Position numbers and translations under genes: made by a program. From assembly GCA_021802325.1 (NCBI GenBank), contig JAKAAM010000006.1, positions 1 through 33,092 of the forward strand: a stretch of 33,092 bases of DNA. The letters are read 5' to 3'. The first letter of the stretch is position 1. Each line of letters starts with the position of its first letter. The DNA comes from Nitrospirota bacterium. GTDB taxonomy: Bacteria > Nitrospirota_A > Leptospirillia > Leptospirillales > Leptospirillaceae. Shown piece after piece: positions 8,038-29,204 of this stretch. The notes beneath the pieces were generated by a model, which was not told the origin of the DNA, did no database searches, and saw nothing but the letters and a program-made list of their open reading frames with translations.

Positions 8038-8073
8038 GAGGCCCCCCTCTTTCTGATAGCCTGACTATTGATT

Positions 8074-8116: not shown

Positions 8117-8136
8117 GCCCAAAGTCGCAAAGGTGG

Positions 8137-8887: not shown

Positions 8888-8890
8888 CCA

Positions 8891-10861: not shown

Positions 10862-10905
10862 GGTTTCCCCTCAAGCCAGAACTGTCTGGTCAGGAATCTT
10901 TCTTA

Positions 10906-11976
10906 TTACTTGGGGTTGGCGGGAACAAGGACAACATCATTCGAACCTGAGACACGTACGTGGGTCGACCCGCAGGAGACCCCGAGAAAGTCGGACCCCT
11001 GAAAGGGCCCGAGGGGCGACTCAGTCTTCGATTCCCCGGACGGGCTCCGGGTGATCAGAATGAGAGTTCCCTGCTCTCCGACCGCGGCCACCACGCCTTC
11101 TCCTGTCCGACATACCCCGTACAAATCGTGCAGCGTTCCCGTCTGAATCTGGGAAAAACGTCTTCCTCCGTCGGACGAAGAAAAAAGAAGACCATGGTCC
11201 CCGGCCAGAAGGACCTCATCCTTTTCCCCCCACAGGCTGTTGAAGGAGGGCTTCTGTCTTGTCACCTTCTGCACGGCTATGTCGACGGCGGTGAAACGGT
11301 TTCCACCGTCCTCCGTCCTGAAAAGTCTCTTGTGCCAGCCGGCGACCAATCCGTGGGATTCGTCTGTAAAGGTGATGGCATATAGGTTCTTTTTTGTCGG
11401 GGAGTTCAGGCGTACCCAATGATCTCCCCCATCGACTGTCCTGAGAATGACCCCATTCTCCCCCACAACGTATCCGACGCGGTCTGTCGGAAAGCTGATG
11501 GCATTAAGGAATAGCCGACCCACCCCCGTTTGAACCTGTTCCCATGATCGCCCACCGTCCTTGGACCGGAGAAGAACACCCCGGTCTCCGGCGACCCAAA
11601 GGACACCAGAAGGAGTACGGCTTATCCCGTAAAAATCCACAGGTACAGGAGGAACAGAACGGCTCCACTGTCGGGTCCTGGAAGACAGGCGAAGGAGGGT
11701 TCCCTGATATCCGATCACAACGAGATTTCGCGAATCCTTCGTAATTCCCGAAAGGACTCCGATGAAGTCAGAGTTCTTCTTGCTGGATGGAGAAACAGGA
11801 GGTGATGGCGGGCGAAGGAGCGAAAAAGGCGTCCCCCCCGGAAGAGAAACGGCAGGAAGTGTCACAGTCTGCGGCTTCTGGCAAGCCGATAAGAAAAGGG
11901 AAGCCGCGGCTAACAGGATGAGCCCCCTGCCTTGGTTCAATCCTTGAGCCATGAATCGATTCATTTTTTCAATCAT
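10906..11976 (-). CDS. Lipoprotein with YCF48-like beta-propeller repeats
   Basis: The 356-residue protein has a hydrophobic signal segment ending in LSAC, a lipobox that would be cut before Cys32 and lipidated. After a Pro/Ser-rich linker come at least four repeats of the S/T-x-DGG-x-x-W/F kind (for example SKDGGRSW and TVDGGDHW), spaced as in BNR/YCF48 propellers. Ycf48 assists photosystem II assembly in phototrophs, but related proteins are widespread in non-phototrophs with unknown roles, and no such role is implied here. ATG codons at 11976, 11964 and 11952 are all possible starts; none has a strong ribosome binding site. Confidence 0.75.
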   Translation of the reverse strand: MIEKMNRFMAQGLNQGRGLILLAAASLFLSACQKPQTVTLPAVSLPGGTPFSLLRPPSPPVSPSSKKNSDFIGVLSGITKDSRNLVVIGYQGTLLRLSSRTRQWSRSVPPVPVDFYGISRTPSGVLWVAGDRGVLLRSKDGGRSWEQVQTGVGRLFLNAISFPTDRVGYVVGENGVILRTVDGGDHWVRLNSPTKKNLYAITFTDESHGLVAGWHKRLFRTEDGGNRFTAVDIAVQKVTRQKPSFNSLWGEKDEVLLAGDHGLLFSSSDGGRRFSQIQTGTLHDLYGVCRTGEGVVAAVGEQGTLILITRSPSGESKTESPLGPFQGSDFLGVSCGSTHVRVSGSNDVVLVPANPK

Positions 11977-11993
11977 GAGGTCAGGATAACTGA

Positions 11994-12024
11994 TCCCGCC
12001 CCTCTCCGCAAGCGAGATGCGGGA
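11994..12024. repeat. Inverted repeat between barrel gene and lipoprotein gene
   Basis: TCCCGC (11994-11999) and GCGGGA (12019-12024) can pair, with a further TCTC/GAGA pairing inside. No T-run follows on either strand, so it is a stable hairpin rather than a clear terminator. It could protect the 3' end of the barrel gene mRNA. Confidence 0.4.
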
Positions 12025-12035
12025 AGGGACGGGGC

Positions 12036-12935
12036 TCAGTGAATATCCTGCTCCTCTTCATAGCGTTTCCCTTCCTTCTCTTCAAAGTCGAAAGGCTTGA
12101 AGTGGTATTCGAAGATGGTTTTGATCGCGAAAGGGGCGCTAACGGGCGTCAGACCGGTTCCCACCCCGATATTCCAGTCGACATGCTCCCCAATGGCGAA
12201 GTTCCAGCTTTGAAAGATGAACTGTTGCTGCATTTCTTGATAAAGGGAAGCGGGCCCCCCCAGCGGCCCCATGTTACTGATCACCCCGTCATCCCCAAAG
12301 ACTTCGATTCCCGCATTGACATTCTCCGCTAGGAGATAATAGACACCCGCAGAATATGCGAACTCGGGGGGAATTCCTGGCTCCGAACCGTCTGTCGCGA
12401 AAAAGAAGGAGGGGTTGACGTCAACGATGAAGCGTCCGATCTTTTTCTCCGCGATCAGGATAATATTAAGGAATGATTGCATCCCGGTTCCCCCGCCCGG
12501 AGCCCAGTATTCGATCTGGACCGCGGGATCGATGAAATCGGGAATCCTCGGGAAACGAAGGCGGGTGGTGATGGCACGGGTCTGGAGATAGGAATAGGTC
12601 TGCCCCGCACCGGCGGCAAAATCGATATAGGCTCCGAGGGTCCACCAGTCGGTGACACCGAACTCCAGGACATATGTGGAAAAAAGCATATTGGCATTTC
12701 GGAGATTGTTTCCGTAAATCGATTCTGACTGTTTGTCAGGCAGCAACAAGGTCTGCCAGGTGCCGATACTCACCTCCCCTTGCTCGGGCGTTTCATAGGG
12801 ATAGATGATAAAGTCCCTGAAGGGATCGGCATGTGCCGAATGGGGAAGAAGAATCGCCAGAAACAAGAAAAAAGCAAGGGCCATGAGCGGCAGGCCCTGG
12901 AAGGGGTGGAAGTTTCCGGAGCGTAAAGGTCTCAA
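12036..12935 (-). CDS. Exported, probable outer-membrane beta-barrel protein of unknown function
   Basis: A signal peptide (hydrophobic run ALAFFLFLAILL, cut after AHA) precedes about 260 residues rich in alternating aromatic and small residues in strands such as TWQTLLLP, WWTLGAYIDFAAG and WNFAIGEHVDWNIGVGTGL. This pattern resembles transporter-like outer membrane barrels, but I do not recognise a named family. The C-terminus is acidic (FDFEEKEGKRYEEEQDIH) and lacks a terminal aromatic residue. I chose the TTG at 12935 because AAAGGA lies 5 nt before it. A GTG at 12968 and an ATG at 12884 are alternatives, the latter giving a shorter signal peptide. A near-consensus promoter lies at 13155-13183. 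Confidence 0.65.
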   Translation of the reverse strand: MRPLRSGNFHPFQGLPLMALAFFLFLAILLPHSAHADPFRDFIIYPYETPEQGEVSIGTWQTLLLPDKQSESIYGNNLRNANMLFSTYVLEFGVTDWWTLGAYIDFAAGAGQTYSYLQTRAITTRLRFPRIPDFIDPAVQIEYWAPGGGTGMQSFLNIILIAEKKIGRFIVDVNPSFFFATDGSEPGIPPEFAYSAGVYYLLAENVNAGIEVFGDDGVISNMGPLGGPASLYQEMQQQFIFQSWNFAIGEHVDWNIGVGTGLTPVSAPFAIKTIFEYHFKPFDFEEKEGKRYEEEQDIH

Positions 12936-13148
12936 GTCGGTCCTTTCTCGCGTTCGCGCAGGAATCACTCCTGAATACGGGTCAAACCTTAGCCCGGATC
13001 AGACTGCAGAAAAAGTCGCTCGCCAAGAGTCCGGTCATCCTCGGAGAGGACCCGGCAGCAGACAAGGGCCGTTTAAATGGGCGCCTGTCCTTTGTCCGAA
13101 GCGAAAACCGGCCCATCCTGAAAGATATGGAAGATTTCATGGGAAACG
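12936..13148 (-). other. Long untranslated leader of the barrel gene
   Basis: Between the predicted transcription start (about 13148) and the chosen start codon lie about 210 nt without a convincing gene. I recognise no known riboswitch consensus. The rest of the 409-bp gap to thrS holds only the two divergent promoters. Confidence 0.4.
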
Positions 13149-13154
13149 GAGATA

Positions 13155-13183
13155 TTTATAGAATCTTCCAAGGCAAATGTAAA
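13155..13183 (-). promoter_or_regulatory. Near-consensus sigma70 promoter for the barrel gene
   Basis: On the minus strand, TTTACA (13178-13183), a 17-nt spacer and TATAAA (13155-13160) match the consensus at 5 of 6 positions in each box. It is the strongest promoter match seen for a minus-strand gene in this window. Confidence 0.65.
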
Positions 13184-13253
13184 GTCTTTTTGAAAAATTA
13201 TTCCAGAACCCCTCACCCTCAATCTCAAAAACTGGAGGGGAAGTTGCTGACCA

Positions 13254-13281
13254 TTGTCTTGCAGACCCCATCTCCTATAAT
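13254..13281 (+). promoter_or_regulatory. Promoter of the thrS-infC-rpmI-rplT operon
   Basis: TTGTCT (13254-13259), a 16-nt spacer and a perfect TATAAT (13276-13281) predict a start near 13288. This leaves a leader of about 57 nt before thrS, too short for a T-box. Confidence 0.65.
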
Positions 13282-13344
13282 ATGGAAACAATCTTCTGTT
13301 TTGTCATAAACGGATTCTTCCCAGACAACTTTTGAAAGGACAAG

Positions 13345-15108
13345 TTGAATCAGACGACCCATGAGCCGGACATCTCTTTAAAGGCCCTCCGGCATAGTGC
13401 CGCCCATGTTCTGGCCCAGGCGGTGAAACGCCTTTTCCCTTCGGCCCAGGTGGGGATCGGACCCGCAACTGAGGAAGGCTTTTACTACGATTTTCACTTT
13501 GAGCGTCCCTTTTCTCCCGAGGATCTCCAGAAGATCGAAGCTGAAATGAAGGCCATCATTGCCGAACGGTCTCCCATTGTCCGCCGGGCCCTTTCCCGGA
13601 ATGAAGCCGGAGACTTTTTTTCCGAAAAAGGTGAGACCTTCAAGCTGGAAATCCTTCACGGGATTCCGGAAGAGTCCGAGATCACGGTCTATGAACAGGG
13701 AGACTTCACCGATCTTTGCCGGGGACCTCACATATCGGACACCGGGAAGATTGGGGCCGTCAAGCTTCTCTCCTCTTCAGGCGCCTACTGGAAGGGAACC
13801 GAAGGTAACCCTTCCCTTCAGCGAATTTACGGAACCGCGTTCCCGACCCAGAAAGAGCTCGACGACTACCTCGAACGTCTCGAGGAAATCCGTCAGCGAG
13901 ACCACCGAAAACTGGGAAAAGAACTGGGATTCTTCCGGACTCTTGATGAAAATGGCGCGGGGATGGTTCTCTGGCTTCCCCGCGGTGCCCGCATTCGCCG
14001 TGTGATCGAGGATATCTGGAAACTTCGCCACGATCGCCACGGATACCAATATGTTTACACCCCTCACATTGCCCGCCTCGATCTCTGGAAAAAATCTGGC
14101 CACTGGGACTTCTATCGGGACAGCATGTTTTCTCCCATGGAAATCGAAGGCGCCGAATTTGAACTCAAGCCGATGAACTGTCCTTTTCATATTCTGATCT
14201 TCAAGGAATCCATTCAGAGCTACCGAGACCTGCCGGTGCGCTTTGCTGAACTGGGAACCGTCTATCGGTACGAGCGCTCGGGAACCCTTCATGGTCTCCT
14301 CCGGGTCCGCGGGTTCACCCAGGATGACGCCCATATCTTCTGCCGTCCAGAGGACATAGCCACCGAAATCGGTAAAGTTCTGAAACTCGTGGACGAGATG
14401 CTCATTCCCTTCGGCTTTACGAATCGGTCGGTCTATCTGTCAACCCGCCCAGAAGGTTCCGTCGGCTCAGACGAGAACTGGGAGGTCGCCACCCGTGCCC
14501 TCGAAGAGGCTCTCCGGACCTCCGGAATTCCTTACGAGATCGATCCGGGAGAAGGCGTCTTCTACGGCCCCAAGATCGACATGAAGTTCCATGACGTTCT
14601 CGGACGGACATGGCAACTTTCGACAATTCAGGTCGATTTCAACCTTCCGGAAAAATTCGACCTGACCTATCGTGACATCTCCGGAAAGGATGTCCGTCCT
14701 ATTATGATTCACAGGGCCCTTCTGGGATCAGTCGAACGCTTTTTTGGAATTCTGGTGGAGCATTTCAAGGGGGCTTTTCCTCTTTGGCTCGCACCCGAAC
14801 AGGTGACAATCCTCACCATTGCCGACCGTCACATTCCCTACGCGGAAAAGATTGCCCGCTCACTTGAATCTTCCGGACTTCGGGTGGCGACGGATTTCAG
14901 AAATGAAAAAATCGGCCTCAAGATCCGGGAAGCCCAACTTCTCAAGGTTCCCCAGATGTGGATCATCGGTGACCGTGAGATGGAGGAAGGAACGGTTTCG
15001 CTCAGACATCGTGACGGAAGTCCGGGAGGAGCTCTTCCATGGGAATCCGCAAAATTGGCCGTAGAGCAGGAAAACCGTTCCGGACTGGCCCTTGATGGAC
15101 AAAATTGA
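13345..15108 (+). CDS. thrS: Threonyl-tRNA synthetase lacking the N-terminal TGS domain
   Basis: The 587-residue enzyme charges tRNA-Thr. It opens almost directly with the editing domain: HSAAH at 17-21 and C125/H129 in DLCRGPHI match E. coli H73/H77 and C182/H186 with an offset of about 56, so the N-terminal TGS domain is absent. The class II catalytic core has the zinc ligands C279 (MNCP) and H330 (DDAH), the motif 2 region YRYERSGTLHGLLRVRGF, and motif 3 near LLGSVERFFGILVEH. The anticodon-binding domain follows. The TTG at 13345 has AAAGGA 4 nt before it, and the nearest ATG at 13360 is out of frame. It heads the thrS-infC-rpmI-rplT operon. Confidence 0.95.
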   Translation: MNQTTHEPDISLKALRHSAAHVLAQAVKRLFPSAQVGIGPATEEGFYYDFHFERPFSPEDLQKIEAEMKAIIAERSPIVRRALSRNEAGDFFSEKGETFKLEILHGIPEESEITVYEQGDFTDLCRGPHISDTGKIGAVKLLSSSGAYWKGTEGNPSLQRIYGTAFPTQKELDDYLERLEEIRQRDHRKLGKELGFFRTLDENGAGMVLWLPRGARIRRVIEDIWKLRHDRHGYQYVYTPHIARLDLWKKSGHWDFYRDSMFSPMEIEGAEFELKPMNCPFHILIFKESIQSYRDLPVRFAELGTVYRYERSGTLHGLLRVRGFTQDDAHIFCRPEDIATEIGKVLKLVDEMLIPFGFTNRSVYLSTRPEGSVGSDENWEVATRALEEALRTSGIPYEIDPGEGVFYGPKIDMKFHDVLGRTWQLSTIQVDFNLPEKFDLTYRDISGKDVRPIMIHRALLGSVERFFGILVEHFKGAFPLWLAPEQVTILTIADRHIPYAEKIARSLESSGLRVATDFRNEKIGLKIREAQLLKVPQMWIIGDREMEEGTVSLRHRDGSPGGALPWESAKLAVEQENRSGLALDGQN

Positions 15109-15117
15109 GGCACCAAA

Positions 15118-15150
15118 ATGACAACCATTACGAAGGGGGTTCCTGATTAA
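15118..15150 (+). CDS. Ten-codon leader ORF overlapping the infC start
   Basis: ATG at 15118 encodes MTTITKGVPD and ends with TAA at 15148-15150, sharing one base with the ATT start of infC (15146-15148). A GAGG lies 7 nt before the ATG and overlaps the end of thrS. The infC ribosome binding site (AAGGGGG) lies inside it. It may couple infC translation to the thrS message; nothing shows that the peptide itself matters. Confidence 0.45.
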   Translation: MTTITKGVPD

Positions 15151-15718
15151 TTCCAAAACACGCATCAACTATGAGATCAAAACCAAGGAAGTTCGTCTTA
15201 TCGGCGCCGATGGGGAACAGCTTGGCATCGTTCCCACAATCGTTGCGATCAAGAAAGCTGAAGAAGCGGGCTTTGACCTTGTCGAGGTTTCTCCCAATGC
15301 CAAACCTCCCGTCTGCAAGCTCATGGATTATGGAAAGTTCCAGTACGAGCAGAGCAAGAAGGTCCACTCCATGAAACAGCACCAGAGAACCGGGCAGGTC
15401 AAGGAGCTCAAGTTCCGTCCCCATATCAATGACCACGATCTCGGAATCAAGATTCATTACGTGGAGCGTTTCCTTGAAGAAGGCAACAAGGCAAAGGTCG
15501 CTCTGGTCTTCCGGGGAAGGGAGATGATCCGGTCTGAAATCGGAACGGAACTGATGCAGAAGATGATCACGGCTCTGGGACCCAAGGCCATCGTCGAATC
15601 ACCCCCGAAATTCGAAGGCACCAGCATGACCATGGTCCTGGCCCCTGCCGTACCCCCCAAAAGTGCTTCAAAGGACTCCAAAGGAACGGATGACGACGCA
15701 TCCTCCCCTAAGGATTGA
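15146..15718 (+). CDS. infC: Translation initiation factor IF-3 (ATT start)
   Basis: IF-3 keeps the 30S subunit free and checks start codons. The frame INSKTRINYEIKTKEVRLIG, GEQLGIVPT, VSPNAKPPVCKLMDYGKF and VKELKFRPHINDHD is standard IF-3, followed by the C-terminal domain ending MVLAP. A Ser/Lys/Asp-rich tail then follows. No ATG, GTG or TTG precedes the conserved N-terminus; an in-frame stop lies at 15119-15121. The only fitting starts are ATT at 15146, with AAGGGGG 6 nt before it, or the adjacent CTG. An ATT (AUU) start is the known autoregulatory feature of infC, because IF-3 rejects non-canonical starts including its own. The protein is about 190 residues long. The first internal ATG (15323) would remove much of the N-domain. 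Confidence 0.95.
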   Translation: MNSKTRINYEIKTKEVRLIGADGEQLGIVPTIVAIKKAEEAGFDLVEVSPNAKPPVCKLMDYGKFQYEQSKKVHSMKQHQRTGQVKELKFRPHINDHDLGIKIHYVERFLEEGNKAKVALVFRGREMIRSEIGTELMQKMITALGPKAIVESPPKFEGTSMTMVLAPAVPPKSASKDSKGTDDDASSPKD

Positions 15719-15744
15719 TCCCTTCGATCATATGTGCTAGCATT

Positions 15745-15774
15745 TTGAAATTGTGATTTTTTCAGGTCTAATAT
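15745..15774 (+). promoter_or_regulatory. Possible internal promoter before rpmI
   Basis: TTGAAA (15745-15750), an 18-nt spacer and TAATAT (15769-15774) lie in the 76-bp infC-rpmI gap. This could give extra L35/L20 transcription. The match is moderate. Confidence 0.35.
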
Positions 15775-15794
15775 TCGAGGAAAGGACGTGCAAC

Positions 15795-15995
15795 GTGGCA
15801 ACAGGACGTGTTCTCAAAACAAAACGTGCCGCAAAAAAAAGATTTTCCCTGACTGGAACGGGCAAGGTCAAGTTTCATCAGTCCGGAAAACGTCACCTCA
15901 TGACGGGGAAGTCCTCGAAAAGGACACGATCCCTCTCGACAGGCATCCTTGAAAAAGGCCAAGCCAAAAAGGTGCTCGTAAACCTGAATATCTGA
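15795..15995 (+). CDS. rpmI: 50S ribosomal protein L35
   Basis: The 66-residue basic protein carries LKTKRAAKKRFSLTGTGKVK and the KRHLMTGKSSKRTR segment typical of L35. The GTG at 15795 gives the family's normal length and follows AAAGGA by 8 nt. An in-frame ATG at 15753 would add 14 residues without family support. It sits between infC and rplT in the standard order. Confidence 0.95.
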   Translation: MATGRVLKTKRAAKKRFSLTGTGKVKFHQSGKRHLMTGKSSKRTRSLSTGILEKGQAKKVLVNLNI

Positions 15996-16069
15996 CCTGA
16001 AGGCCTCCGTACGGACGAAATTCCGATTACGGGGGTCATTGTCATTTTGTCCCTTCAAGGAGGAAATCG

Positions 16070-16420
16070 ATGCCACGCGTAAAAGGCGGTCCGCAGACTC
16101 GGGCCCGTCGAAAAAAAATTCTCGATATGGCCAAGGGATACTGGGGAGGGCGTTCCCGTCTCTACCGGTCGGCCCGACATACTGTTGAAAAAGGCTTGAC
16201 ATACGCCTATCGTGATCGCAAAGCCAAGAAAAGGGAATTCAGAAGGCTGTGGATTCAGCGAATCAATTCGGCGTGCCGTCCCCAGGGACTGACCTACAGC
16301 CGCCTGATCGCCGGTCTCAAGAAAATGGGCATTGGACTTGATCGCAAGATCCTGGCTGATTTGGCCTTGAACCAGCCCGATGCTTTCACTGATCTTCTGA
16401 ACAAGGTCAAGGCCGGATAG
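16070..16420 (+). CDS. rplT: 50S ribosomal protein L20
   Basis: The 116-residue protein starts MPRVKGG and has the long basic N-terminal tail, then [17 protein letters not shown] and [14 protein letters not shown] residues (here [11 protein letters not shown]), all standard L20. A strong AGGAGG lies just before the ATG. L20 is an assembly protein and in many bacteria represses this operon. It is the last gene before a clear terminator; the pheS-pheT pair that follows in many bacteria is not here. Confidence 0.97.
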
Positions 16421-16448
16421 CTCTCCGGTCTCTTTCCAAAACAAAAAT

Positions 16449-16470
16449 GGCGCCTGATGGCGCCTTTTTT
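16449..16470 (+). terminator. Intrinsic terminator after rplT
   Basis: GGCGCC (16449-16454), loop TGAT and GGCGCC (16459-16464) are followed by TTTTTT (16465-16470). A-rich sequence before the stem could make it work on both strands. It ends the thrS-rplT operon. Confidence 0.88.
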
Positions 16471-16629
16471 GTTATCGATTTTCCCATTCCCTGTCATCTT
16501 AACGGGAACTAGGTACAGCCATGCGCCTCCCTCTCTTCCAGAGCCTTTGACTTCAGGGCCTTGAAAGATGAAAATAGAAAAAACGGAAAGTGATTTATTC
16601 TTTCTTATCTATCCGGCAGGGGCGTCAGA

Positions 16630-17679
16630 ATGGTCGTCCGCTATGCGGAAAGCAAAGATGAAAGCGCAGAAATCCTCCGTCTCGTCCTGCAGAAGATGGG
16701 TGAATGGCGTCTTTCCTTCACCCCCGTTCATTACACCGTCGTTTACGAATATGTCACCAACATCAATCCAGGCCTTCGAAAAACCATCGACGATCTAGTC
16801 GCCGCAGGGGCCCTGACCGACAAGAAGATCGAAGAAGCCTATTACGGATTCATCGTTCCGGAACAAACCCTTCCCGTCCTCGAGCAGCGAGGGCTCCTGA
16901 CCCAGGAAACCCTCGAAATCCTTAACCGCATGGCCGAATCGGCCAACACGACCATGCAGACGACCCAAAAGGCCCGATTCGGAATTCTTTCCCAGCACAA
17001 TGCCCTTAGGACAGCCGAGGTCGTCGACTCCTCCCTTCTCCAGTCTGTCATCACCCGGCTCGCGGGAGAGACCAAAAAGCTTCTTGAGACGAGCGAAACA
17101 CTTGAAAATCAGTTGCGGGACAGCCGAAAAGAAATTGAGTCCCTCCGATCCGAGCTTCAGGCAGTGGCCCAGGCATCAGCCATCGATCCTCTGACCGGGG
17201 TCATCAACAGGCGAGGGTTTGAAAAACAGATCCAATCCTGTCTTCAGATCCACGAAAAAAAAGCCGGAGACTGCTCCTTTCTTTTTCTCGACATCGACCA
17301 TTTCAAGCAGATCAACGACGAATACGGCCACGTCGTGGGGGACCGTGTCCTTCAGGCCGTCGCGCAGGTTTTCAGGGCAAAGACGCGGGGTGAAGACATC
17401 GTGGCCCGATACGGAGGGGAGGAGTTCATCATCATTCTTCCGGCGACGCCCATCGATAAGGCCCATATTGTCGCCGAGAACATTCGCCAGAACGTGGAGC
17501 GAATCGCACTCCTGAACGCCAAGGACAGCAAAACGATAGGAGTCGTGACTGTTTCGATCGGCATCGACGTTCACAAGCCAGGGCAGAATTGGCGTCAGAC
17601 GATCGAGCGGGCCGACAAGGCCATGTACCAGTCAAAGCAGAACGGAAGGAATCGAACAACAACCTATTTTCAGATCTGA
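16630..17679 (+). CDS. Diguanylate cyclase (GGDEF domain)
   Basis: The 349-residue soluble protein has an all-helical N-terminal domain (about 1-130) of the kind found in front of many GGDEF domains, a coiled-coil at about 145-180, and a GGDEF domain from about 185. The active-site loop is GGEEF at 262-266. An RGED inhibitory site (R253-D256) sits five residues before it, so feedback inhibition by c-di-GMP is expected. It should make c-di-GMP from two GTP. No sensory domain with a known ligand and no membrane segment is seen. It has no obvious operon partner on its strand and converges on the giant GGDEF-EAL gene with 10 bp between stops. Confidence 0.9.
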   Translation: MVVRYAESKDESAEILRLVLQKMGEWRLSFTPVHYTVVYEYVTNINPGLRKTIDDLVAAGALTDKKIEEAYYGFIVPEQTLPVLEQRGLLTQETLEILNRMAESANTTMQTTQKARFGILSQHNALRTAEVVDSSLLQSVITRLAGETKKLLETSETLENQLRDSRKEIESLRSELQAVAQASAIDPLTGVINRRGFEKQIQSCLQIHEKKAGDCSFLFLDIDHFKQINDEYGHVVGDRVLQAVAQVFRAKTRGEDIVARYGGEEFIIILPATPIDKAHIVAENIRQNVERIALLNAKDSKTIGVVTVSIGIDVHKPGQNWRQTIERADKAMYQSKQNGRNRTTTYFQI

Positions 17680-17689
17680 GTCTTCCTCC

Positions 17690-20600
17690 TCATTTTTTCC
17701 CTTCCTCCTCATCCATTCTCTCTTTTTCCTCCAAAACGGCCTCTGCCAACCGATCTGAGACCTTTTTCAAAGGAGCGAGATCCTCTTCCAGCGAACTCAG
17801 CCCGTTCTCCCGAATTTTTCGAATTCCTGCCGCCAAAGCCTCGTGATAGCGGGAGTGTAGCCGGTCGATTTTCCCTCCGGAAACCAGCCCAAACCTGTCT
17901 ATGGTTTTTTGGACAGGACAATCCTTCACGTCTCCAAGGGACGTCAGATCAAAAACGGCCGGGCTTTGAAGGAGAAACTCCAACTGCATCCCATGAGTCC
18001 GGACCAGCAGGGCATAGAGACCGAGAAGGGATTTCGGCACAAAATTCCTTTCCGGAGGATACGTGCGAAGGAAGGCGACCAGATCGGGAAGAGGCAGAGG
18101 GCGAGAGATCCCGTACCCCTGAAGGAGGTCCACTCCCAACATGCGCATGGCATCCAGGATCGGGCCGGTTTCCACCCCTTCCACAACAAGGGAAAGCCCC
18201 ATCCTGTGGGAAAGCTCCATGATCGCCTCAACGAAATGGAGATCCTTCGGACGTCTCTCGAGGGTCCGGACAAAACCCTGATCGAGCTTCACCTTGTCGA
18301 CGGGGAGATCCTTCAGGCGAAGGAGCGACGAATAGGCACTTCCTACATCGTCCATGGCCAACCTGACTCCCAATCCCTTGAGCCGTTTCAGAAGCTCGAG
18401 AGCCACAATCGTTTCGCCGAACTCCTGTCCCTCGAGAATCTCGAGCGTGAGGCGGGAAGGGTCGATCCGTGCATCCCCGAGCATCCTCCCAAGGCATTCG
18501 AGGCATCCTTCGGTAATGGATCGGGGATCGACATTGACAGAAACCCAGAGGGACGGGTCCGTGTCGAAAAGCTCTCCGAGATCCGAGAGGGCCCGTTCCA
18601 TCACCTGCCGGGAGAGTTCGAAGAGATCGTCTCCCCCATAGTCCTGAAGAAAGGAGGCCGGAGAAAGGATCGATCCATCAACGTCCCGGAGGCGTGCCAG
18701 CGCCTCGACCCCTACGATCCGGCCCGTCCTGTTGTCGAGGACGGGCTGATAATGAACCTCCACCTTCCGCTCGTAGAGAAGACACTGGGCATGGGTCCGT
18801 GCCAGCGGAACCGTTTCTCCGTATATCATCCAGCAGCGGGAGCGGTCTGTCTTGTGACCCTTGCTTTCGTAGAGAGCCTGATCGGCAAGTCGCATGAGAT
18901 TCTCCGGATTTTCAGGAGCCCCCGAACCGGGAGAGGACAACGCCACACCGATCGACACTCCCACCGAGACCTCTTCCCCTTCCTCAAGACTCACAGGCAT
19001 TCTTGCGGTCCGGTCGATTCTGTCGAGGAGATCCCCAAGCTCCTCACGACCCGTTATATTTTCAAGAAGAAGCACAAATTCATCTCCACCGAGCCGGGCC
19101 AGGAAGTCGGTCTTTCGAAGAACTCCCAGGATCCGCTCCCCCGTCAGACGAAGAAGACGGTCTCCGGCCTCGTGGCCATAGCGGTCGTTAACTGGCTTGA
19201 AACGGTCGAGGTCAAGAATAGCGACGGCAAAGGACCACCCGTACCGGGCGGAGCGGGCGAGGAGCCTGTCAAACTCGAGGTCAAGCCCACGCCGGTTCGG
19301 CAGGCCGGTCAGCCGGTCGTGGCGCGAGTCAAACTCCAGTCTTTTGGTCAGATCGATCAGGGAGGTGATATCCCGCTGGTTTCCGACAAATTCGACGAGC
19401 CGGCCAGAGGAGTCCCGGAGCGGGCTGATGGAAAGGAGATTCCAGAAGGGTGTCTTGTCCTTCCTGTAGTTCAGAATCTGCCCGTGAAAAGGGCGCTCCT
19501 CCCGAAGTGCCGAGCGGATTTTTTCGACCGTCTCTGGGTCGGTCCCCTCTCCCTGCAGGATCCGGCAATTCTGCCCTATCATCTCCTCGGCCGGGTACCC
19601 CGTGATCGACGAAAACCCTTCGTTGACAAAAATAATTCGTCCATCAGTCTCTGTGATCACGACCCCTTCCCCGACTGCCGCCACCGCGCTTGAGAGAAGA
19701 TTTTGCCGGGAGAGAAGATCCAGTCGGTCAAGGCCAAGAGAGATATTTCGGGCGAGTTCGGTCAGGAGCCCTTCGAGAACGGGATCGCTGAAGGCACCCT
19801 CCTTCACATGGGCGACAAAAAGGAGCCCCCAGGGGACCCCTTTCCGGAGGAGCGGAAGGGCCCCGCTGGCGTTTAGTCCGAACTCCCGGAGTCTTTCCCC
19901 CCACAGCGCCCGGGTCCCTGTCGGATCCGGGTCGAAGACAGGACCGCGACCCCCAAGGACCGGAGCGAGGCGATCCACGATTTCGCTCACTCCTTGCAGA
20001 GGTGAGCTCCCCCCTCCAGGAATGTCCGCCTGCCCCGAGGACGCCACCACATGCATCCCTCCCCGGCCATCCGGACAAAGGATGGCGGCCACCGTCATCT
20101 CGCCGTGAGTGACGGCCAGTTCGCAAAGCTTTGAAAGAAGCGTGGATTCGTCGAATCCGGCAGAAAGCGCCTCCGAGGCATGGGCGAGGAGGGTGTTATA
20201 TGAGGAGAGGAGGCGGAGCCGTTCCGTCTGGGCATGCCGGTCGCCCACGTCATGGACAGTGCCCACGACCACCGAGGGTTCGTCCGGAATACGGGCCAGG
20301 GAGATGTCCACCATGACAGGATGCCCGTTCTTCTTGACCATCCTCACGTCCGGGATCTCGACGCTTTCACGATTTGAAAGAAACCCGTATGCAAAACCCA
20401 CCCGCTCGAATTCCCCCGCATCGCCATAAAGCATCCGGGTCGTATGACCCACCATTTCCCCCACCTGGTCATAGCCCAGCATCTGCCGCATCCGGTCGTT
20501 TGCGTAGCGGATCCGGCGCTTTTCGAGGAGCATGATCCCCGCCCGTGTGTTTTCAAGGAGGACCTTTTCGAAGGCCGCCGACTCCCTTTCCCGTCGGAGG

Positions 20601-23332
20601 GACTCGAGACGGTCGAGCCCCCGGGAGACATCCCGTGCCAGCTCCGAGAGCACCTCCTGAAGAGCGGGGTCGAAACTGGCCGGCTCCTCGTGATACAGCG
20701 CCAGGACCCCCCATATTCCTCCCTCCCGCATGACCGGAAGGACCGCCGCGGTCCGGAGATTGTGGTGACGGGCCCTTTCCCCAGCCGTTGTTCCGCCAAG
20801 CCTTTCAGGAATGTCGACATTGAAAAGAGGGCGCCCCGTCCGCCAGACCTCGCCAACAATCCCTTTCCCGCCATCATGATCCGGATCGACCGAAATCTCG
20901 AGGTTCTCGATAAATGCTGTCTCTCCGGCGCTCGCCTCCACCTTGACGGTCCCTCCGTCTTCCGGACGCCCGATCCAGGCCAGACGAAGCTTCCCGAAGC
21001 GGACCGCCAGGTCGCAGATTCCCTGGAGAAGTGACTCCTCAACCGTCGCTTCGGCGATCGCCTGATTGACCTGGGCCAGAAGACTGTTGAAATCGGCAAG
21101 CCGGGACAGATCCCGGGCCAGACGATGCCGCTCGGAGACGTCGATGATCGTCCAGACGACCGTATCGGGCCCTTCCCCGGCGATTTTCTGTCCGGAGAGA
21201 TCCACGAAGCCTTCAGAGCCGTTTGCACGGCGGATACGCAGGTCCCGGAGAAAGGCTCTCCCTGTCGCGAGGGCCTCATTCGAGGCCTCTCCCATTTTTT
21301 CAAAGCTGTCGTCTCCCACGAAATAAAGATCCCGGACGCTGTGTCCCACGATTTCTTCCGGAGCCCCGTAACCCAGGATTTCGAGAAAGCCCCTGTTCGC
21401 CTCGACCACAATCCGGTCGGGATAGCGAACGAGGTCGATTCCGGCCGTGGTATTGGCGAGAAGGGTCTCCTTGAGGGCCGTGGCAATCCTTTCTCTCTGC
21501 AAGAGATCAAAACGGTCGAGGGCCAGAGAAAGATTGTCCGCGATCGCCTCGAGCAGATGCCGAAGCTCGGGCTCGAAACTTTCCTCCCTGTCGAGGTAGA
21601 CGGTCAGCACCGCCCAGATCGCTCCCCCGCGATGGACCGGGATGGAGGCACTGGACTGGAAGTCAAAGCGGCGGGACAAGGATTCCCATGGTCCCATGAC
21701 AAGGTTTCGCCTAAAGGAGGAATTATAAACTGGCCGGTCCGTTCTCCAGGCCTGGCCCATCGGACCCCGGCCCTCCGGACGGTCGTCAAGGCTCGAGACA
21801 ACGGCGTGTTCGAGGTATCCGTTCTCTCCGGAGGACGCCAGAACCCGAAAGATCCCAGCCTCATCGGGACGACCGACCCAAGCCAGCCGGATTTCAGGAA
21901 CATCGATCGCAAGTCGGCAGAAATCCGGAAGGATTTCCTCTTCCCGGATCTCTCTCGACACCGCCTCCGCGACCCGACCCCGCAGAACATCGAAAGCTAA
22001 CAGACGCTCGAGCCGTTCGTTTTTTTCCTCGAGTCTTCCTTCAAGTTCCCGACGTTCGGTCACGTCGAGCCCCAGAAAAACCCGATAAAGGGGACGCCCC
22101 TCCCCGTCATTAAGGACGGAGAGGCTCCATTCGAAGGTCCGACGCTCTCCGGTCCTTCCGGTCCAGGCACATTCGGAGGGAACGGGGGCCTCCCCCCGCG
22201 TCAGTGCGTCAAAGAAGCTCCGGACGTCTGAACGGTCCTCTGCCGTCAAGAAACGCATCCACTCCCAGGGCTTTCCCCGGACCTCTTCCGCCGTCACTCC
22301 CAAAAATCTTCTCGCCGTACGGTTGATGCGAAGGGCCTCGCCATTCGGATCAAGGACCAGTCCCAGGGCTCCGGCTCCATCGAAGATCGCTTCGTCGAGC
22401 TCGGACAGTTCGGCGAGCTGTCTGCCCTGGCGTTCCTGACGGCGAACCAGAGTCCGAATCCCCAAAACCATCAGGACCAGCAAAAACAGTCCTCCCTCCT
22501 CGAGCATCCACCGTCGTGACGACAGGCCCATCCACCCTTCCCGGACCAGGGAATTCGGCCAATACGCCGTCATTTCGAAGGGGTATCCGGGAACAGGAAC
22601 CCGGACGATGTTTTTGTCTCCGGGAATCAGAGGGGAGTCGGGACGGTTTCCCCGGACCAGGAACAGAATGTCTCCGTTCCGGAGATCCCTGAGGGAAAAG
22701 CTGAAGGTGCGATGGGCCTTCGGGGGAACCAGGTTCGCCACCCGAAGGGAGGTCCGAACCCCCAGAGGGGATCTCCCGGCCTGGGCGGGAAGCAGGATCG
22801 AGAGGGGGAGAATCCGCGTTCCGAGACGGGAAGAAAGCCGGCTGCGTCCCACAAGAAAAGAGGGATTCTCGGGGAGGGGTGTGGCATAGCCGTTTGCAGG
22901 AAAAGGGGCCGGGAGGGAAGACTCGGGCGAAACCCGGGTTGACCAAAGGATCCGGCCGGTTCGCGGGTCATAGAGCTCGAAGTCGACCAGGGACGGGTGA
23001 AGGGCCAGGAAAATCCGGAGCGTCTGCTCCCTCTTCGGACCGGGTTTCGGCCCGGGAGTCCGGATCGGGTGGTTGATTTCCGGAAGGGTGGCCGCCACAA
23101 ACCCAAGATCGAGAAAGTGCGACGAGAGGCGACGGGACACAGCTGAGGCGCGTGTCAGGGCAGCCCGGACCGCTCGCGCCTCCACCGCATTCCGGTAATC
23201 GCTGTATTCCGCCGATTCGAAAAAGGCGATTCCCAGGAGGGCCAGGATGAGGGTTCCTGCAACCAGAAGGCCAACCGACCTCCCGATCAGCAGATGATCC
23301 AGCAGACGTCTGGGTGTAAGCGTTGTCTTCAT
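17690..23332 (-). CDS. Giant membrane PAS/GAF/LOV-GGDEF-EAL protein with CZB-like C-terminus
   Basis: The protein has 1880 residues. TM1 is near 16-38, a periplasmic part of about 235 residues follows, and TM2 is near 276-297. Three PAS-GAF pairs span about 309-1205. A LOV-type PAS (1210-1330) has GQNCRILQ with Cys1256 and the flavin-contact residues N1288, N1298 and Q1319. GGDEF is at 1415-1419 with inhibitory site RKTD (1406-1409). The EAL domain keeps E1543, N1600, E1631, D1661, D1662, K1682, E1718 and Q1738. The last 110 residues hold H1780, C1805, H1826 and H1830, arranged like a CZB zinc site. Both catalytic domains look active, so the sensors probably set the balance of c-di-GMP synthesis and breakdown. 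It starts 23 nt after pheT and may be its operon tail. Confidence 0.92.
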   Translation of the reverse strand: MKTTLTPRRLLDHLLIGRSVGLLVAGTLILALLGIAFFESAEYSDYRNAVEARAVRAALTRASAVSRRLSSHFLDLGFVAATLPEINHPIRTPGPKPGPKREQTLRIFLALHPSLVDFELYDPRTGRILWSTRVSPESSLPAPFPANGYATPLPENPSFLVGRSRLSSRLGTRILPLSILLPAQAGRSPLGVRTSLRVANLVPPKAHRTFSFSLRDLRNGDILFLVRGNRPDSPLIPGDKNIVRVPVPGYPFEMTAYWPNSLVREGWMGLSSRRWMLEEGGLFLLVLMVLGIRTLVRRQERQGRQLAELSELDEAIFDGAGALGLVLDPNGEALRINRTARRFLGVTAEEVRGKPWEWMRFLTAEDRSDVRSFFDALTRGEAPVPSECAWTGRTGERRTFEWSLSVLNDGEGRPLYRVFLGLDVTERRELEGRLEEKNERLERLLAFDVLRGRVAEAVSREIREEEILPDFCRLAIDVPEIRLAWVGRPDEAGIFRVLASSGENGYLEHAVVSSLDDRPEGRGPMGQAWRTDRPVYNSSFRRNLVMGPWESLSRRFDFQSSASIPVHRGGAIWAVLTVYLDREESFEPELRHLLEAIADNLSLALDRFDLLQRERIATALKETLLANTTAGIDLVRYPDRIVVEANRGFLEILGYGAPEEIVGHSVRDLYFVGDDSFEKMGEASNEALATGRAFLRDLRIRRANGSEGFVDLSGQKIAGEGPDTVVWTIIDVSERHRLARDLSRLADFNSLLAQVNQAIAEATVEESLLQGICDLAVRFGKLRLAWIGRPEDGGTVKVEASAGETAFIENLEISVDPDHDGGKGIVGEVWRTGRPLFNVDIPERLGGTTAGERARHHNLRTAAVLPVMREGGIWGVLALYHEEPASFDPALQEVLSELARDVSRGLDRLESLRRERESAAFEKVLLENTRAGIMLLEKRRIRYANDRMRQMLGYDQVGEMVGHTTRMLYGDAGEFERVGFAYGFLSNRESVEIPDVRMVKKNGHPVMVDISLARIPDEPSVVVGTVHDVGDRHAQTERLRLLSSYNTLLAHASEALSAGFDESTLLSKLCELAVTHGEMTVAAILCPDGRGGMHVVASSGQADIPGGGSSPLQGVSEIVDRLAPVLGGRGPVFDPDPTGTRALWGERLREFGLNASGALPLLRKGVPWGLLFVAHVKEGAFSDPVLEGLLTELARNISLGLDRLDLLSRQNLLSSAVAAVGEGVVITETDGRIIFVNEGFSSITGYPAEEMIGQNCRILQGEGTDPETVEKIRSALREERPFHGQILNYRKDKTPFWNLLSISPLRDSSGRLVEFVGNQRDITSLIDLTKRLEFDSRHDRLTGLPNRRGLDLEFDRLLARSARYGWSFAVAILDLDRFKPVNDRYGHEAGDRLLRLTGERILGVLRKTDFLARLGGDEFVLLLENITGREELGDLLDRIDRTARMPVSLEEGEEVSVGVSIGVALSSPGSGAPENPENLMRLADQALYESKGHKTDRSRCWMIYGETVPLARTHAQCLLYERKVEVHYQPVLDNRTGRIVGVEALARLRDVDGSILSPASFLQDYGGDDLFELSRQVMERALSDLGELFDTDPSLWVSVNVDPRSITEGCLECLGRMLGDARIDPSRLTLEILEGQEFGETIVALELLKRLKGLGVRLAMDDVGSAYSSLLRLKDLPVDKVKLDQGFVRTLERRPKDLHFVEAIMELSHRMGLSLVVEGVETGPILDAMRMLGVDLLQGYGISRPLPLPDLVAFLRTYPPERNFVPKSLLGLYALLVRTHGMQLEFLLQSPAVFDLTSLGDVKDCPVQKTIDRFGLVSGGKIDRLHSRYHEALAAGIRKIRENGLSSLEEDLAPLKKVSDRLAEAVLEEKERMDEEEGKK

Positions 23333-23355
23333 GCTCTCCCCGTCCCGGCCGAAGC

Positions 23356-25071
23356 TCAGGAGGCCAGCATCGCCTCCAGATCAACCTCGAAACAGACCGT
23401 GGGCATCCGGATCCCCCACCTGTCCAGAAATTCCGGATGGATCTCTCCGACCGTCGCAACCGTCTCGCCCGACCTGTTCACATACGTTCCACATCGTCCA
23501 GGCAGATAGGGAGCGAGGTCGGCGGTTCGAATGACCAATGTCCGATCCATCCGCTCGAACAACATCTCGAGAACCCCCTGGAGCTCGGAAACACTGGCCT
23601 GGGGATGCGCAAGGAGGGCCGACATGAGCCAAAGATCGTTGATCGGCCGATCCTCTTCGCCCCGCGAGGCGGCCCCGAGACGCATCGCCTCCCCGACCTC
23701 AAAAATCCTGTGGGGATAGAGGGCCCGGCCAGATCGTGCCTCGGCCGCGAGAAGGCCGGCCAGAAGTGAGGGGCGAACGACGGCGAACTGAAGGCTTGCC
23801 GGGTTGTCGATCCGGACCAAAGCCCCGGCATCCCGCCCGAGGCGCTCCGTCACGAGCGGCTCTCCGGTCAGGATGTTTGAGAGGAGTTCCTGGTATCCCA
23901 TCGCCGTCAAGGCTTGCCTGATGCGGGACTCGATTTTCTGGCGGGGGGCTGGCCTCCCCCGCGTGAACTCCCGGGGAAGGAGGGGCTCAAAAGTATCATA
24001 CCCTTTGGCCACAAGGTAATCCTCCACCACATCCACGGCTCCGAGAAGATCGTCCCGAGTGAAGGGCGAGAGGACTTCCCATCCCGATTTTCCTTCTCCC
24101 GCCGGACGGGAGATCTGGGGATAGCCGAAATCCAGGAGTGTCTCCACAAAATCGGAAGGATCCCTCTCCTCCCCCAGAACCCGGGCCGGAAGACCTGTTG
24201 GAACATGAACGACGGTTCCCGGGGAGGCGGGCGCCACGAGAGGAGATTTTCCTCCCGCCATGAGGGGCTCGACCTCGTATCCCCGATCCGTCAGGTTTGC
24301 GGCCAGGATGTTCAGGACCAAAAGGAGCCGTCCGGGGTCGAATCCGGTCGCCTCAACGAAAAGACCTTCGTCCTCCGGGGTGACCTCCCCCGAAGAGGTG
24401 GCATTGATCACGGGAGGAAAGGACAGGATCGTCTCCCGTGCGTCGAAGAGAACCGGCCAGGCTGAGTGCCCCTTCAAAAGGCCCCCGTATGCCCGTCCCT
24501 TGGGATGGGTTTCCACGATCTCACCCAGCGTCATCGCATGGTCCGCACCTAGAGGAACGAACCGTGTGGTTACGGGATCGCAGGCCCGGTAAGTCAGAGG
24601 AAAGACGATCCGGTCGAGAGGGTAGACACCGATCGCCAGATCAGCGCGCTTTCTCCCGAAGAGATCGGACAGGCGCTCCTGAGTCCCGATGATCTGGAGG
24701 AGGCCTTCGGCCCCGAGACGGCCTCCCCGTGCACAGAACCCTCCCATGAAGGGACGGACCCTGTCCACCGAGGAATCGATCCGGATATCAGGCTCCCCCC
24801 CCTTCCGCTTGCGGCGGTCCGCCTGCTCGAGAAATCCGTAGGGATGGCCGGAACGTGGACGGCCTCCCCGAAGCTGGCGCGCGATCCCTTCCACGCTCCA
24901 GAGATCAGGCCGGTTTGTATCGTTGAGCTCGATCTTGAAGCGCCCGGTTCCAGGGTCGAACTGTTTCCACTCCCCTTTCACCGCATCAAGGGTCCGGTCC
25001 ATCTCCTCCGGGGAGAGCCTCCTGCCCAGAAGCTCCTGTAGATCGTCAAAATGTCCTTCCAGTGTCGGCAC
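23356..25071 (-). CDS. pheT: Phenylalanyl-tRNA synthetase beta subunit, archaeal type
   Basis: The 571-residue protein opens with MPTLEGHFDDLQELLGRRLS and has the NRPDLWSVEGIARQLRG block, as in archaeal PheT proteins. Bacterial PheT is about 800 residues long, with an N-terminal tRNA-binding (EMAP-like) domain and a C-terminal anticodon-binding FDX-ACB domain; both are absent here. The B3/B4, B5-like and catalytic-like domains are present. The GTG at 25071 has GAGG 5 nt before it. It lies 41 nt after pheS and shares its origin. The pair forms the heterotetrameric enzyme that charges tRNA-Phe. Confidence 0.9.
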   Translation of the reverse strand: MPTLEGHFDDLQELLGRRLSPEEMDRTLDAVKGEWKQFDPGTGRFKIELNDTNRPDLWSVEGIARQLRGGRPRSGHPYGFLEQADRRKRKGGEPDIRIDSSVDRVRPFMGGFCARGGRLGAEGLLQIIGTQERLSDLFGRKRADLAIGVYPLDRIVFPLTYRACDPVTTRFVPLGADHAMTLGEIVETHPKGRAYGGLLKGHSAWPVLFDARETILSFPPVINATSSGEVTPEDEGLFVEATGFDPGRLLLVLNILAANLTDRGYEVEPLMAGGKSPLVAPASPGTVVHVPTGLPARVLGEERDPSDFVETLLDFGYPQISRPAGEGKSGWEVLSPFTRDDLLGAVDVVEDYLVAKGYDTFEPLLPREFTRGRPAPRQKIESRIRQALTAMGYQELLSNILTGEPLVTERLGRDAGALVRIDNPASLQFAVVRPSLLAGLLAAEARSGRALYPHRIFEVGEAMRLGAASRGEEDRPINDLWLMSALLAHPQASVSELQGVLEMLFERMDRTLVIRTADLAPYLPGRCGTYVNRSGETVATVGEIHPEFLDRWGIRMPTVCFEVDLEAMLAS

Positions 25072-25112
25072 AACAACCTCTTGTCTTTAGGGTCCTTGGC
25101 ACGGATCTCCGT

Positions 25113-26681
25113 CTACGACGGACTCCATGCGCGTGAATGCTCCTCCGAACGGGCCATGGCCGCCAGGGTCGATAGATCGCCGGTGAACAAATCCCGGATG
25201 TCAGAAAGTCCCAGTCTGAACATCGCCATGCGATCGATTCCCATCCCCCAGGCGATGACAGGAACTGTGACCCCCAGGGGGCGTGTCACCTCCGGGCGGA
25301 AAAGCCCGGCTCCTCCCAGCTCCATCCAACCCAGGACCGGATGGTGGGCATGCAGTTCGACGGAAGGCTCGGTGAACGGAAAGTAGGCCGGCTTGTAGTG
25401 CACACGGTCCACCCCGGCGATCTCCTTCGCCAGAAGCGCCAGAAGTCCCAGTAGCGTCCTGAAGCTCGCCCCTTCTTCGAGTACGATCCCTTCCGCCTGG
25501 AAGAAGTCCACTGCATGGGTTGCGTCGACCTGGTCGTGGCGGAAACATCGGGCGATGGCAAAGTACTTCCCGGGAATCTCCGGACGTCCCGCCAGAGTCC
25601 GGGCCGAGAGGGCCGTCCCCTGGCTCCGCATGAGAAGGCGCCGGGACTGGGCAGGATCGAAGCTCTGTCTCCACCCCCGGGTCTCGGTCGGCGCCTCCCG
25701 GCCTTCATGAGTCCGCGCGACGGCGTCGAGAGGCCATCCATCAATGTCGGAGGCGCTCCGGGGCTCGGACAGAAGATAGATGTCATGAATGTTCCGGGCG
25801 GGATGGGTCTGGGGGATGAAAAGGGCGTCCATGTTCCAGAACTCCGGCTCGACCAGACTCCCGGTCATTTCTGCGAAACCAAGCCGGACCAGGTGGGACC
25901 GGACTTCGTCGAGGAACTCGCGGTAGGGATGGAGCCGTCCGGTCGCAGGTCGCGGAGGAGGTGTTTCGAGAGAGTAGGGCCTGAAGGAGCGGCCCTCCCA
26001 GCTTCGGTGCATGAGCATCTCGGGAGTCACCGCCCCCAGGGCGCCCTCGGAGGCGGCGATTTCCTCCGCGGTGATGGTGCATCCCGGGGAGAGACGACAG
26101 GACTTCGAGGCCCGCTCGTCGAAACGCAAAAGCCCCTTGCCCTTGCCTCTTTTGCGTTGGTACAGCTCGAGAAGTTCCTGATCCTCGCTGGAAAGCTCTT
26201 CCAGCAAGACAGGAGAGGCCGATCCGGCAATTTCTTCAAGAAGCCTCCGGAGCCGTCTGATCCCTTCGGGAAGATCGCCCGACCGATGGACGAACCCCCC
26301 TTCTCCGATTCGAATCGCTCCGCTCTCCTTGAGGGCGCCGATGGCCTTCGAGGCGATCGATGGGTCAGGAAAGAGCTCCCTCAAATCCTTCATGTCCCTG
26401 GGGCCTCCGGAGAGAGCCTCCATGATGACCTCCTCCGGAAGCCCCCGGACCCGGGACTCCTCCCCTCCCTCGGTGAGGGAGAGAACGGTCTCCAGTCGGT
26501 CGACCCTTTCCTCAAGGATGGATTTTGCCTTGAGCCATTCGACTCCCATCTGGACCTGAGAGGATTCGAGACCGGAAAGCCGTACGATTTCCGGAAGCGA
26601 CAGATAGGCGTCGGGCTCAGGACCAGAGAGGAAGGCACGGAGGATGGCCCTTTCGAGCGGATGAAGGGCGGCGGAAGACAT
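25113..26681 (-). CDS. pheS: Phenylalanyl-tRNA synthetase alpha subunit, archaeal type
   Basis: The 522-residue protein is about 200 residues longer than usual bacterial PheS. Residues 1-200 hold small winged-helix-like units (LSLPEIVRLSGLESSQVQMG and similar) in place of the bacterial coiled-coil arm, as in archaeal and eukaryotic enzymes. The class II core has motif 2 CFRHDQVDATHAVDFFQAEG, a WMELGGAGLFRPEV segment and the motif 3 region AWGMGIDRMAMFRLGL. The ATG at 26681 lies one base after the stop of the ABC ATPase gene (TGA-C-ATG). A longer frame to 26780 is only overlap with that gene. Confidence 0.9.
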   Translation of the reverse strand: MSSAALHPLERAILRAFLSGPEPDAYLSLPEIVRLSGLESSQVQMGVEWLKAKSILEERVDRLETVLSLTEGGEESRVRGLPEEVIMEALSGGPRDMKDLRELFPDPSIASKAIGALKESGAIRIGEGGFVHRSGDLPEGIRRLRRLLEEIAGSASPVLLEELSSEDQELLELYQRKRGKGKGLLRFDERASKSCRLSPGCTITAEEIAASEGALGAVTPEMLMHRSWEGRSFRPYSLETPPPRPATGRLHPYREFLDEVRSHLVRLGFAEMTGSLVEPEFWNMDALFIPQTHPARNIHDIYLLSEPRSASDIDGWPLDAVARTHEGREAPTETRGWRQSFDPAQSRRLLMRSQGTALSARTLAGRPEIPGKYFAIARCFRHDQVDATHAVDFFQAEGIVLEEGASFRTLLGLLALLAKEIAGVDRVHYKPAYFPFTEPSVELHAHHPVLGWMELGGAGLFRPEVTRPLGVTVPVIAWGMGIDRMAMFRLGLSDIRDLFTGDLSTLAAMARSEEHSRAWSPS

Positions 26682-26682
26682 G

Positions 26683-29082: not shown

Positions 29083-29127
29083 GAAAAAACCTTTCCTGAC
29101 AAATTCGATTCCGGAGGACATGAAAGA

Positions 29128-29149
29128 GGATCCGTCAAAAACCGGATCC
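29128..29149 (-). repeat. Hairpin in the queD leader
   Basis: GGATCCG (29128-29134) and CGGATCC (29143-29149) form a perfect 7-bp stem with an 8-nt loop, directly at the predicted transcript start. No T-run follows on the minus strand. It may stabilise the mRNA or regulate it; no preQ1 riboswitch consensus is seen. Confidence 0.45.
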
Positions 29150-29153
29150 GGCC

Positions 29154-29162
29154 ATTATAGCA
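29154..29162 (-). promoter_or_regulatory. Extended -10 promoter for the queD-pheT-giant gene block
   Basis: On the minus strand the sequence reads TGCTATAAT: a perfect TATAAT (29154-29159) with the TGn extension. No good -35 is present; a small AAGAC/GTCTT inverted repeat (29166-29178) lies just upstream. The start would be near 29147. Confidence 0.6.
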
Positions 29163-29204
29163 GATAAGACGGTGTCTTGCGGAAGGATGCGCGTCTCGAC
29201 TTAA

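Follow-up and report, generated by a model that had tools for sequence, protein, structure and literature searches.

The window analysed here, a stretch of 33,092 nucleotides from a member of the Leptospirillaceae, carries on its minus strand an open reading frame of 1880 amino acids (17690..23332). The product comprises an N-terminal membrane segment, a probable periplasmic region, a stack of PAS and GAF modules, a LOV domain, a GGDEF domain, an EAL domain and a C-terminal helical domain, and the coordinates of all these parts refer to the minus strand. The N-terminal hydrophobic segment (23207..23296) was recognized by hydropathy, as was a second, weaker one near residue 277, and because of these two segments residues from about 40 to 280 are probably periplasmic. 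The stretch 19718..22405, which separates the membrane anchor from the LOV domain, is taken up by PAS and GAF modules; in total, Pfam placed PAS_9 on four stretches of the protein, the LOV domain included, and GAF_2 on three. The LOV domain, residues 1210-1330, is followed by the GGDEF domain (residues 1337-1496, 18845..19324, Pfam), which has its GGDEF signature and an RxxD motif (RKTD), and by the EAL domain with its signature motifs (residues 1521-1745, 18098..18772, Pfam and alignment). The GGDEF, RxxD and EAL motifs presumably contain the catalytic residues.

The C-terminal helical domain (17693..18082) resembles CZB zinc-binding domains. Residues 1751-1880 matched no Pfam family at E <= 10, and so gave no match to CZB (PF13682), while Pfam CZB was found in the homologues P0116 and P0119, both included in the alignment of this region. 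Conserved His and Cys residues, with an HxxxH motif, were recognized there: H1780 was present in 20, C1805 in 29, H1826 in 30 and H1830 in 29 of the 30 aligned rows. CZB ligands form a His/Cys/HxxxH set, to which these residues may correspond. A zinc input to c-di-GMP through the C-terminal domain is possible.

Loci of relatives showed the two neighbours of the gene to be conserved, namely a convergent gene for a GGDEF protein (16630..17679, plus strand) and, on the other side, pheT (23356..25071, minus strand). PheT has 571 amino acids and PheS (25113-26780, minus strand) 555, sizes which seem to us unlike those of the usual bacterial pair. The GC content was 0.539 in positions 1-17685, on the side of the GGDEF gene, versus 0.608 in 17686-33092, on the side of the LOV gene. 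A misassembly at this step is unlikely, since a similar difference was present at the same junction in all three relatives measured (L011, 0.545/0.628; L067, 0.531/0.609; L073, 0.575/0.651).

Of the 23 stretches compared, 13 had the gene in the setting of the window; these belong to 11 genomes, two of which are represented twice. The remaining 10 held paralogues located elsewhere. Both in the window and in 10 further genomes the gene is flanked by pheT on one side and by the convergent GGDEF gene on the other. An eleventh genome, G016, shows the GGDEF gene and thrS in the same arrangement on a contig that stops short of pheT. The contig of G014 is too short for a view of the neighbourhood, and its copy is an orthologue by sequence only. 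For the contig of the window, G000:C124, the locus list states a length of 25,877 bases, whereas the stated span of the window on it is C124:6-33097.

The LOV domain of the 1880-residue protein

The first-pass annotation, made from the nucleotide sequence, had proposed a LOV domain in residues 1210-1330 at 19343..19705, and both the residues and the coordinates were recovered exactly. It gave no strand; the domain is read from the minus strand, and the plus strand over the same positions reads something else. The motif GQNCRILQ with the predicted adduct-forming Cys1256 (19565..19567), which was followed through the orthologue rows, was found where it had been claimed, and so were Asn1288 (19469..19471) and Asn1298 (19439..19441), both predicted flavin contacts, and Gln1319 (19376..19378), the predicted signalling glutamine, all in LOV contexts. 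By analogy with the two arginines of the cyanobacterial protein SL2, Arg1257 (19562-19564) and, as the second one, Arg1273 (19514..19516) are presumably a phosphate-contacting pair. The other conserved residues listed in an excerpt of PMC4682037 (G59, N61, R63, F64, L65, Q66, N94, N104 and Q123 of YtvA) were all kept except F64, which is Ile1258.

Profile searches, suggested as a check by the same annotation, bore out the assignment at a level far above chance. The excised domain matched PAS_9 of Pfam at 4e-28 and LOV-bearing models of NCBIfam, the best of which were the YtvA family (5.8e-36) and blue-light histidine kinases, matched in their LOV part. The whole-protein cut-offs of these NCBIfam models were not reached; the complete protein scored 146.7 bits against a cut-off of 250 for the YtvA family NF052652 and is a non-member, as it is for phosphodiesterase DibA NF045675 (345.2 bits, whole-protein cut-off 980). 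In phmmer searches of PDB sequences the top match (2.6e-34) was 9vf7, labelled as a histidine kinase and elsewhere named a Meiothermus LOV domain. Further top matches were the Chloroflexus LOV domain with its fluorescent variants, phototropins and YtvA, and proteins labelled as LOV constituted the majority of the best 60 of 157 matches. An AlphaFold2 model of 676 residues, from the LOV domain to the C-terminus (30 rows), had a mean pLDDT of 87.7, and most of its LOV part exceeded 90. Its Foldseek matches were led by the PAS-GGDEF-EAL protein PA0861 and by DosP, with 8c05 at rank 15, and the VIA-align list for the same model was filled by EAL-bearing chains. A model of the LOV domain alone (3 rows) was weak, with a pLDDT of 65.6; the best 50 of its 286 Foldseek matches (E <= 0.001) were LOV domains.

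Features expected of a LOV photoreceptor were hence seen in both sequence and structural models, i.e., the Cys motif and a LOV/PAS fold whose nearest structures are LOV. It had been stated in advance that closest homologues of PAS type lacking the Cys would speak against the assignment. The nearest orthologues keep the Cys and the nearest structures are LOV photoreceptors, with the caveat that one sister clade of orthologues has Leu at the Cys position. An ordinary PAS domain without flavin was rejected on account of the presence of every scored pocket residue. Judged by these sequence tests, the domain is genuine and of the canonical LOV type. Two MAG records labelled Nitrospirae contained orthologues that are 80-86% identical and have the same LOV motif; a third locus from the same database search gave a distant GGDEF match only. 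More distant orthologues were labelled 'Leptospirillia bacterium' and Leptospirillum.

Cys and Leu at the adduct position

The orthologues were divided by the residue at the adduct position. Cys was found in G000 (the genome of the window), G009, G010, G012, G014, G016, G017, G018 and G020, and Leu in G008, G011, G013 and G015. With database proteins included, the 31 orthologue rows comprised 19 with Cys and 12 with Leu, several of them near-copies of one another. The assembly of G008 has its copy in two distinct open frames; P0017, which is very close to it, is one protein of 1594 amino acids. All scored pocket residues were intact in the window copy and in the near orthologues. The RKTD and GGDEF motifs were kept in all 31 rows. 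The EAL motifs were altered in four rows, G018/P0008 and G014/P0007, all of them Cys orthologues, so the phosphodiesterase output is not kept everywhere.

In a tree built without the LOV columns, by a quick method on 27 of the 31 rows (4 near-copies left out) and with a long-branch warning for G018, the 12 Leu rows grouped as a single clade (support 100) whose sister was a set of 4 Cys rows, and 11 long-form rows with Cys branched outside. On the GGDEF-EAL columns alone the support for the Leu clade went down to 82/84 (mixture-model search, 22 of 31 rows, long branch G018 left out). Since most rows outside the clade in the wider tree have Cys, loss of Cys looks like the simpler direction within the orthologues. 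Codons were TGC or TGT at Cys and CTC, CTT or CTG in the 8 Leu loci, so that a direct switch needs two base changes.

A second Leu group was found elsewhere in the family, consisting of P0092/L026/L035 and L027/L028, the latter pair from another genus. Three Cys/Leu changes were counted in the LOV-only tree (94 of 114 domains, those with at least 5/8 pocket residues) and two in the LOV-GGDEF-EAL tree, and starred branches force at least two in both. A single inherited group of all Leu forms was ruled out (p-AU 5e-58, log-likelihood 318 lower) on a quick tree in which the group was defined by residue, with 71 of 83 filter-passing rows, named near-copies and short rows being left out. Database domains with at least 7/8 pocket residues (n = 191) had Cys in 174 cases, Leu in 13, Pro in 2 and Met in 2; these are no random sample, as they go back to two Leptospirillum-type queries, which gave 284 domains from 225 proteins, among them copies of the window protein. 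A source name was given for two of the 13 Leu rows, P0012 and P0017, both Leptospirillum-type. Met was observed at the adduct position of P0128 and P0129, with the 8 other scored pocket residues kept.

The 12 Leu rows were 65-70% identical to the window protein in LOV, 59-62% in GGDEF and 59-61% in EAL, with 36-52% in those N-terminal, PAS and GAF modules that were aligned. For the C-terminus the figure was 29-33%. In LOV, the sister clade's 4 Cys rows were 57-63% identical to the window protein. Mean pairwise identity among 7 Cys long-form orthologues was 78% in LOV, 80% in GGDEF and 75% in EAL, and 48-69% in the six further modules that were compared. Among 7 representatives of the Leu clade, LOV was not the best-kept module, with 82%, next to EAL (82%), PAS2 (83%), GGDEF (87%) and PAS1 (87%). 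The pN/pS of LOV was 0.23-0.30 in 6 Leu pairs versus 0.04-0.23 in 6 Cys pairs, which is within the range of EAL. Judged from these ratios, LOV is under purifying selection in both groups, slightly weaker in the Leu pairs. In residues 1205-1331, nine columns told every Leu row apart from every Cys row; they include 1256 and 1301, the latter being Ser in Cys rows and Thr in Leu rows. A Leu domain still matched LOV structures first (5.2e-34, PDB sequences), and this fits a working flavin domain without adduct.

The Leu orthologues bring in another reading of the window protein, rather improbable in our opinion, in which the domain is mainly a flavin redox sensor for the quinone pool, oxygen or iron-driven redox state that keeps a photoreactive Cys, with light as a minor input. 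The 8 other scored pocket residues are all kept in 11 of the 12 Leu rows, and 7 of 8 in P0012 (Lys for Arg), and together with the purifying selection on the Leu domains this favours such a sensor. Precedents are also known: PASd of RmcA, which is without the Cys, is needed for light- and phenazine-dependent effects according to passages of PMC8846402, and an excerpt of PMC4682037 describes two LOV proteins whose Cys-less variants signal when the flavin is photoreduced. A pure redox sensor, however, would have no need of the Cys, which is invariant in all 11 long-form rows of the window's own clade in the tree without LOV columns, and the domain is no less constrained in the Cys clade.

RmcA of Pseudomonas aeruginosa, as described in the same passages of PMC8846402, has four PAS domains, GGDEF and EAL, with PASd being LOV-like. 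By this description it is likened to the window protein in its multi-sensor stack, LOV-like PAS and GGDEF-EAL output, but differs in that PASd lacks the Cys which the window copy has, and the Leu orthologues (12 rows) are the nearer parallel. Roughly 70 natural Cys-less LOV-like entries in GenBank are counted in an excerpt of PMC4682037; the one studied, BAT-LOV of halobacteria, binds flavin and changes shape on flavin reduction. The Leu orthologues are alike in keeping a LOV pocket without Cys. They differ in that the residue is Leu, in orthologues whose sisters keep Cys, whereas the replacements named in that excerpt are Ala, His and Pro.

Predicted light-sensing domains in the family

In the 21 genomes of the family, a cut-off of E <= 1e-18 gave 53 LOV-like domains. 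Among them, 27 had Cys and 8 had Leu together with at least 7/8 other pocket residues, and 18 were otherwise altered, i.e., had neither Cys nor Leu, or less than 7/8 of the other pocket residues. The altered domains, one of which (L003) belongs to the window's own genome, would be in line with a decayed or signal-blind LOV domain, maybe still flavin-binding, that does no more than space the GAF modules from GGDEF as a structural PAS unit. For the window protein we hold this very unlikely, as the scored pocket residues are all intact in its copy and in the near orthologues, and the LOV pN/pS is within the EAL range. Among the LOV-like paralogues, L003 (G000:C93:36046-36390), L046, L047 and L049 have kept the Cys and lost other pocket residues, with, among others, His at the Gln position. 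In L040 (G008:C73) the Cys is present with Leu at the glutamine position, and it is likened to the Gln-deficient LOV domains treated in an excerpt of PMC9098866, as a natural Gln-deficient LOV. A second canonical Cys-LOV of the window's genome, G000:C40:8627-8989 (L002), is close to P0073. The order of modules in P0073 is GAF, LOV, GGDEF, protoglobin and EAL, so that a light module and a heme module are predicted within a single c-di-GMP protein.

At least one Cys-LOV with at least 7/8 other pocket residues was found in 20 of the 21 genomes, the exception being G019, which is 70% complete. Photolyase-type FAD_binding_7 was detected in 11 of 21 genomes (one a short fragment), the phytochrome PHY domain in 3 of 21, and BLUF in none of the 21. 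Photolyase, BLUF and PHY gave no match in the window's own genome, which is 88.7% complete. PHY was present in three of the four genomes with a Leu orthologue (G008, G011 and G013) versus none of the 9 with a Cys orthologue and none of the 8 other family genomes; the genomes form one clade, so this counts as one event and carries no statistics. All four Leu-orthologue genomes hold a Cys-LOV elsewhere. Loss of the Cys because the clade lives in the dark was considered and found unsupported, with PHY in three and a Cys-LOV elsewhere in all four of these genomes.

The first-pass annotation regarded a light role as surprising if the host were dark-living. This objection is weakened by the spread of Cys-LOV, photolyase-type and PHY domains in the family, and light sensing by LOV is predicted to be usual there. 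From the names of the orthologues, the host is a relative of Leptospirillum and presumably an acidophilic iron oxidiser. In the literature searched we found no report of a light response in Leptospirillum and no joint mention of 'Leptospirillum' and 'LOV domain'; acid mine drainage and LOV domain are mentioned together in one paper, the review PMC8846402. A commentary (PMC10267684) deals with the deep-sea bacterium Qipengyuania flava, whose thiosulfate oxidation is promoted in blue light by a LOV histidine kinase together with c-di-GMP.

A probable path from the LOV domain to c-di-GMP

The LOV domain had been placed directly before GGDEF, and this is correct. The linker, counted as in PMC10396304 from Asp1321 (DIT) to Leu1341 (DRLT), has 21 residues (19310..19372, minus strand), which is the length found in short-linker LadCs. 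Two tested members of that branch were about 15-fold light-activated, according to the part of PMC10396304 that treats them. The best PDB sequence match to LOV plus GGDEF was 8c05 (7.8e-39), the dark-state structure of a LOV-activated diguanylate cyclase and a long-linker LadC member. The likeness lies in the LOV-GGDEF unit with its linker as in the short-linker branch. LadCs, in contrast, consist of one LOV and one GGDEF only, and the window protein adds EAL and many inputs.

In the order of LOV, GGDEF and EAL, with the signature motifs, the window protein has the architecture of SL2 from Synechococcus elongatus, a LOV-GGDEF-EAL phosphodiesterase active in blue light as described in passages of PMC8846402. 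Both combine a Cys LOV with GGDEF and EAL. The window protein differs by its 1880 amino acids, with a membrane segment, several PAS/GAF modules and a C-terminal domain added.

The reading we favour, and consider likely, is that of a flavin-binding, blue-light-responsive LOV domain which biases c-di-GMP turnover in a multi-sensor membrane protein. The domain would most likely bind FMN, and blue light would most likely give rise to the adduct between Cys1256 and the flavin. Gln1319 would then read the resulting flavin protonation, and the change would pass via the linker to the GGDEF-EAL pair, a coupling which we infer, with a shift in the balance of c-di-GMP synthesis versus breakdown. As to the direction, more hydrolysis under light, by analogy with SL2, is a first guess that we prefer by a small margin over the opposite. 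Light probably modulates an enzyme that responds to multiple signals, because LOV is the last of several inputs, following the membrane/periplasmic part and the PAS and GAF modules. Since a sister clade is without the Cys, the job of the protein cannot rest on the adduct in all species.

A broader proposal, which we put forward tentatively and think less likely to be right than wrong, concerns the Leptospirillaceae as a family. One LOV scaffold before GGDEF(-EAL) may have been switched more than once between a Cys light sensor and a Leu, Cys-free flavin sensor, with selection maintaining the rest of the pocket. In this proposal Leu forms would signal the flavin redox state, e.g., electron supply from iron oxidation, to c-di-GMP, and Cys forms would signal light. 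The window gene would then represent the light-reading state of a dual-use sensor.

Cys-less LOV domains are already a known kind. Orthologues which differ at the adduct residue, with linker and output kept, offer a natural matched comparison of light versus redox LOV signalling. For the biology of the group, the findings suggest that blue light may be sensed by iron oxidisers of the Leptospirillum type, with c-di-GMP as the messenger.
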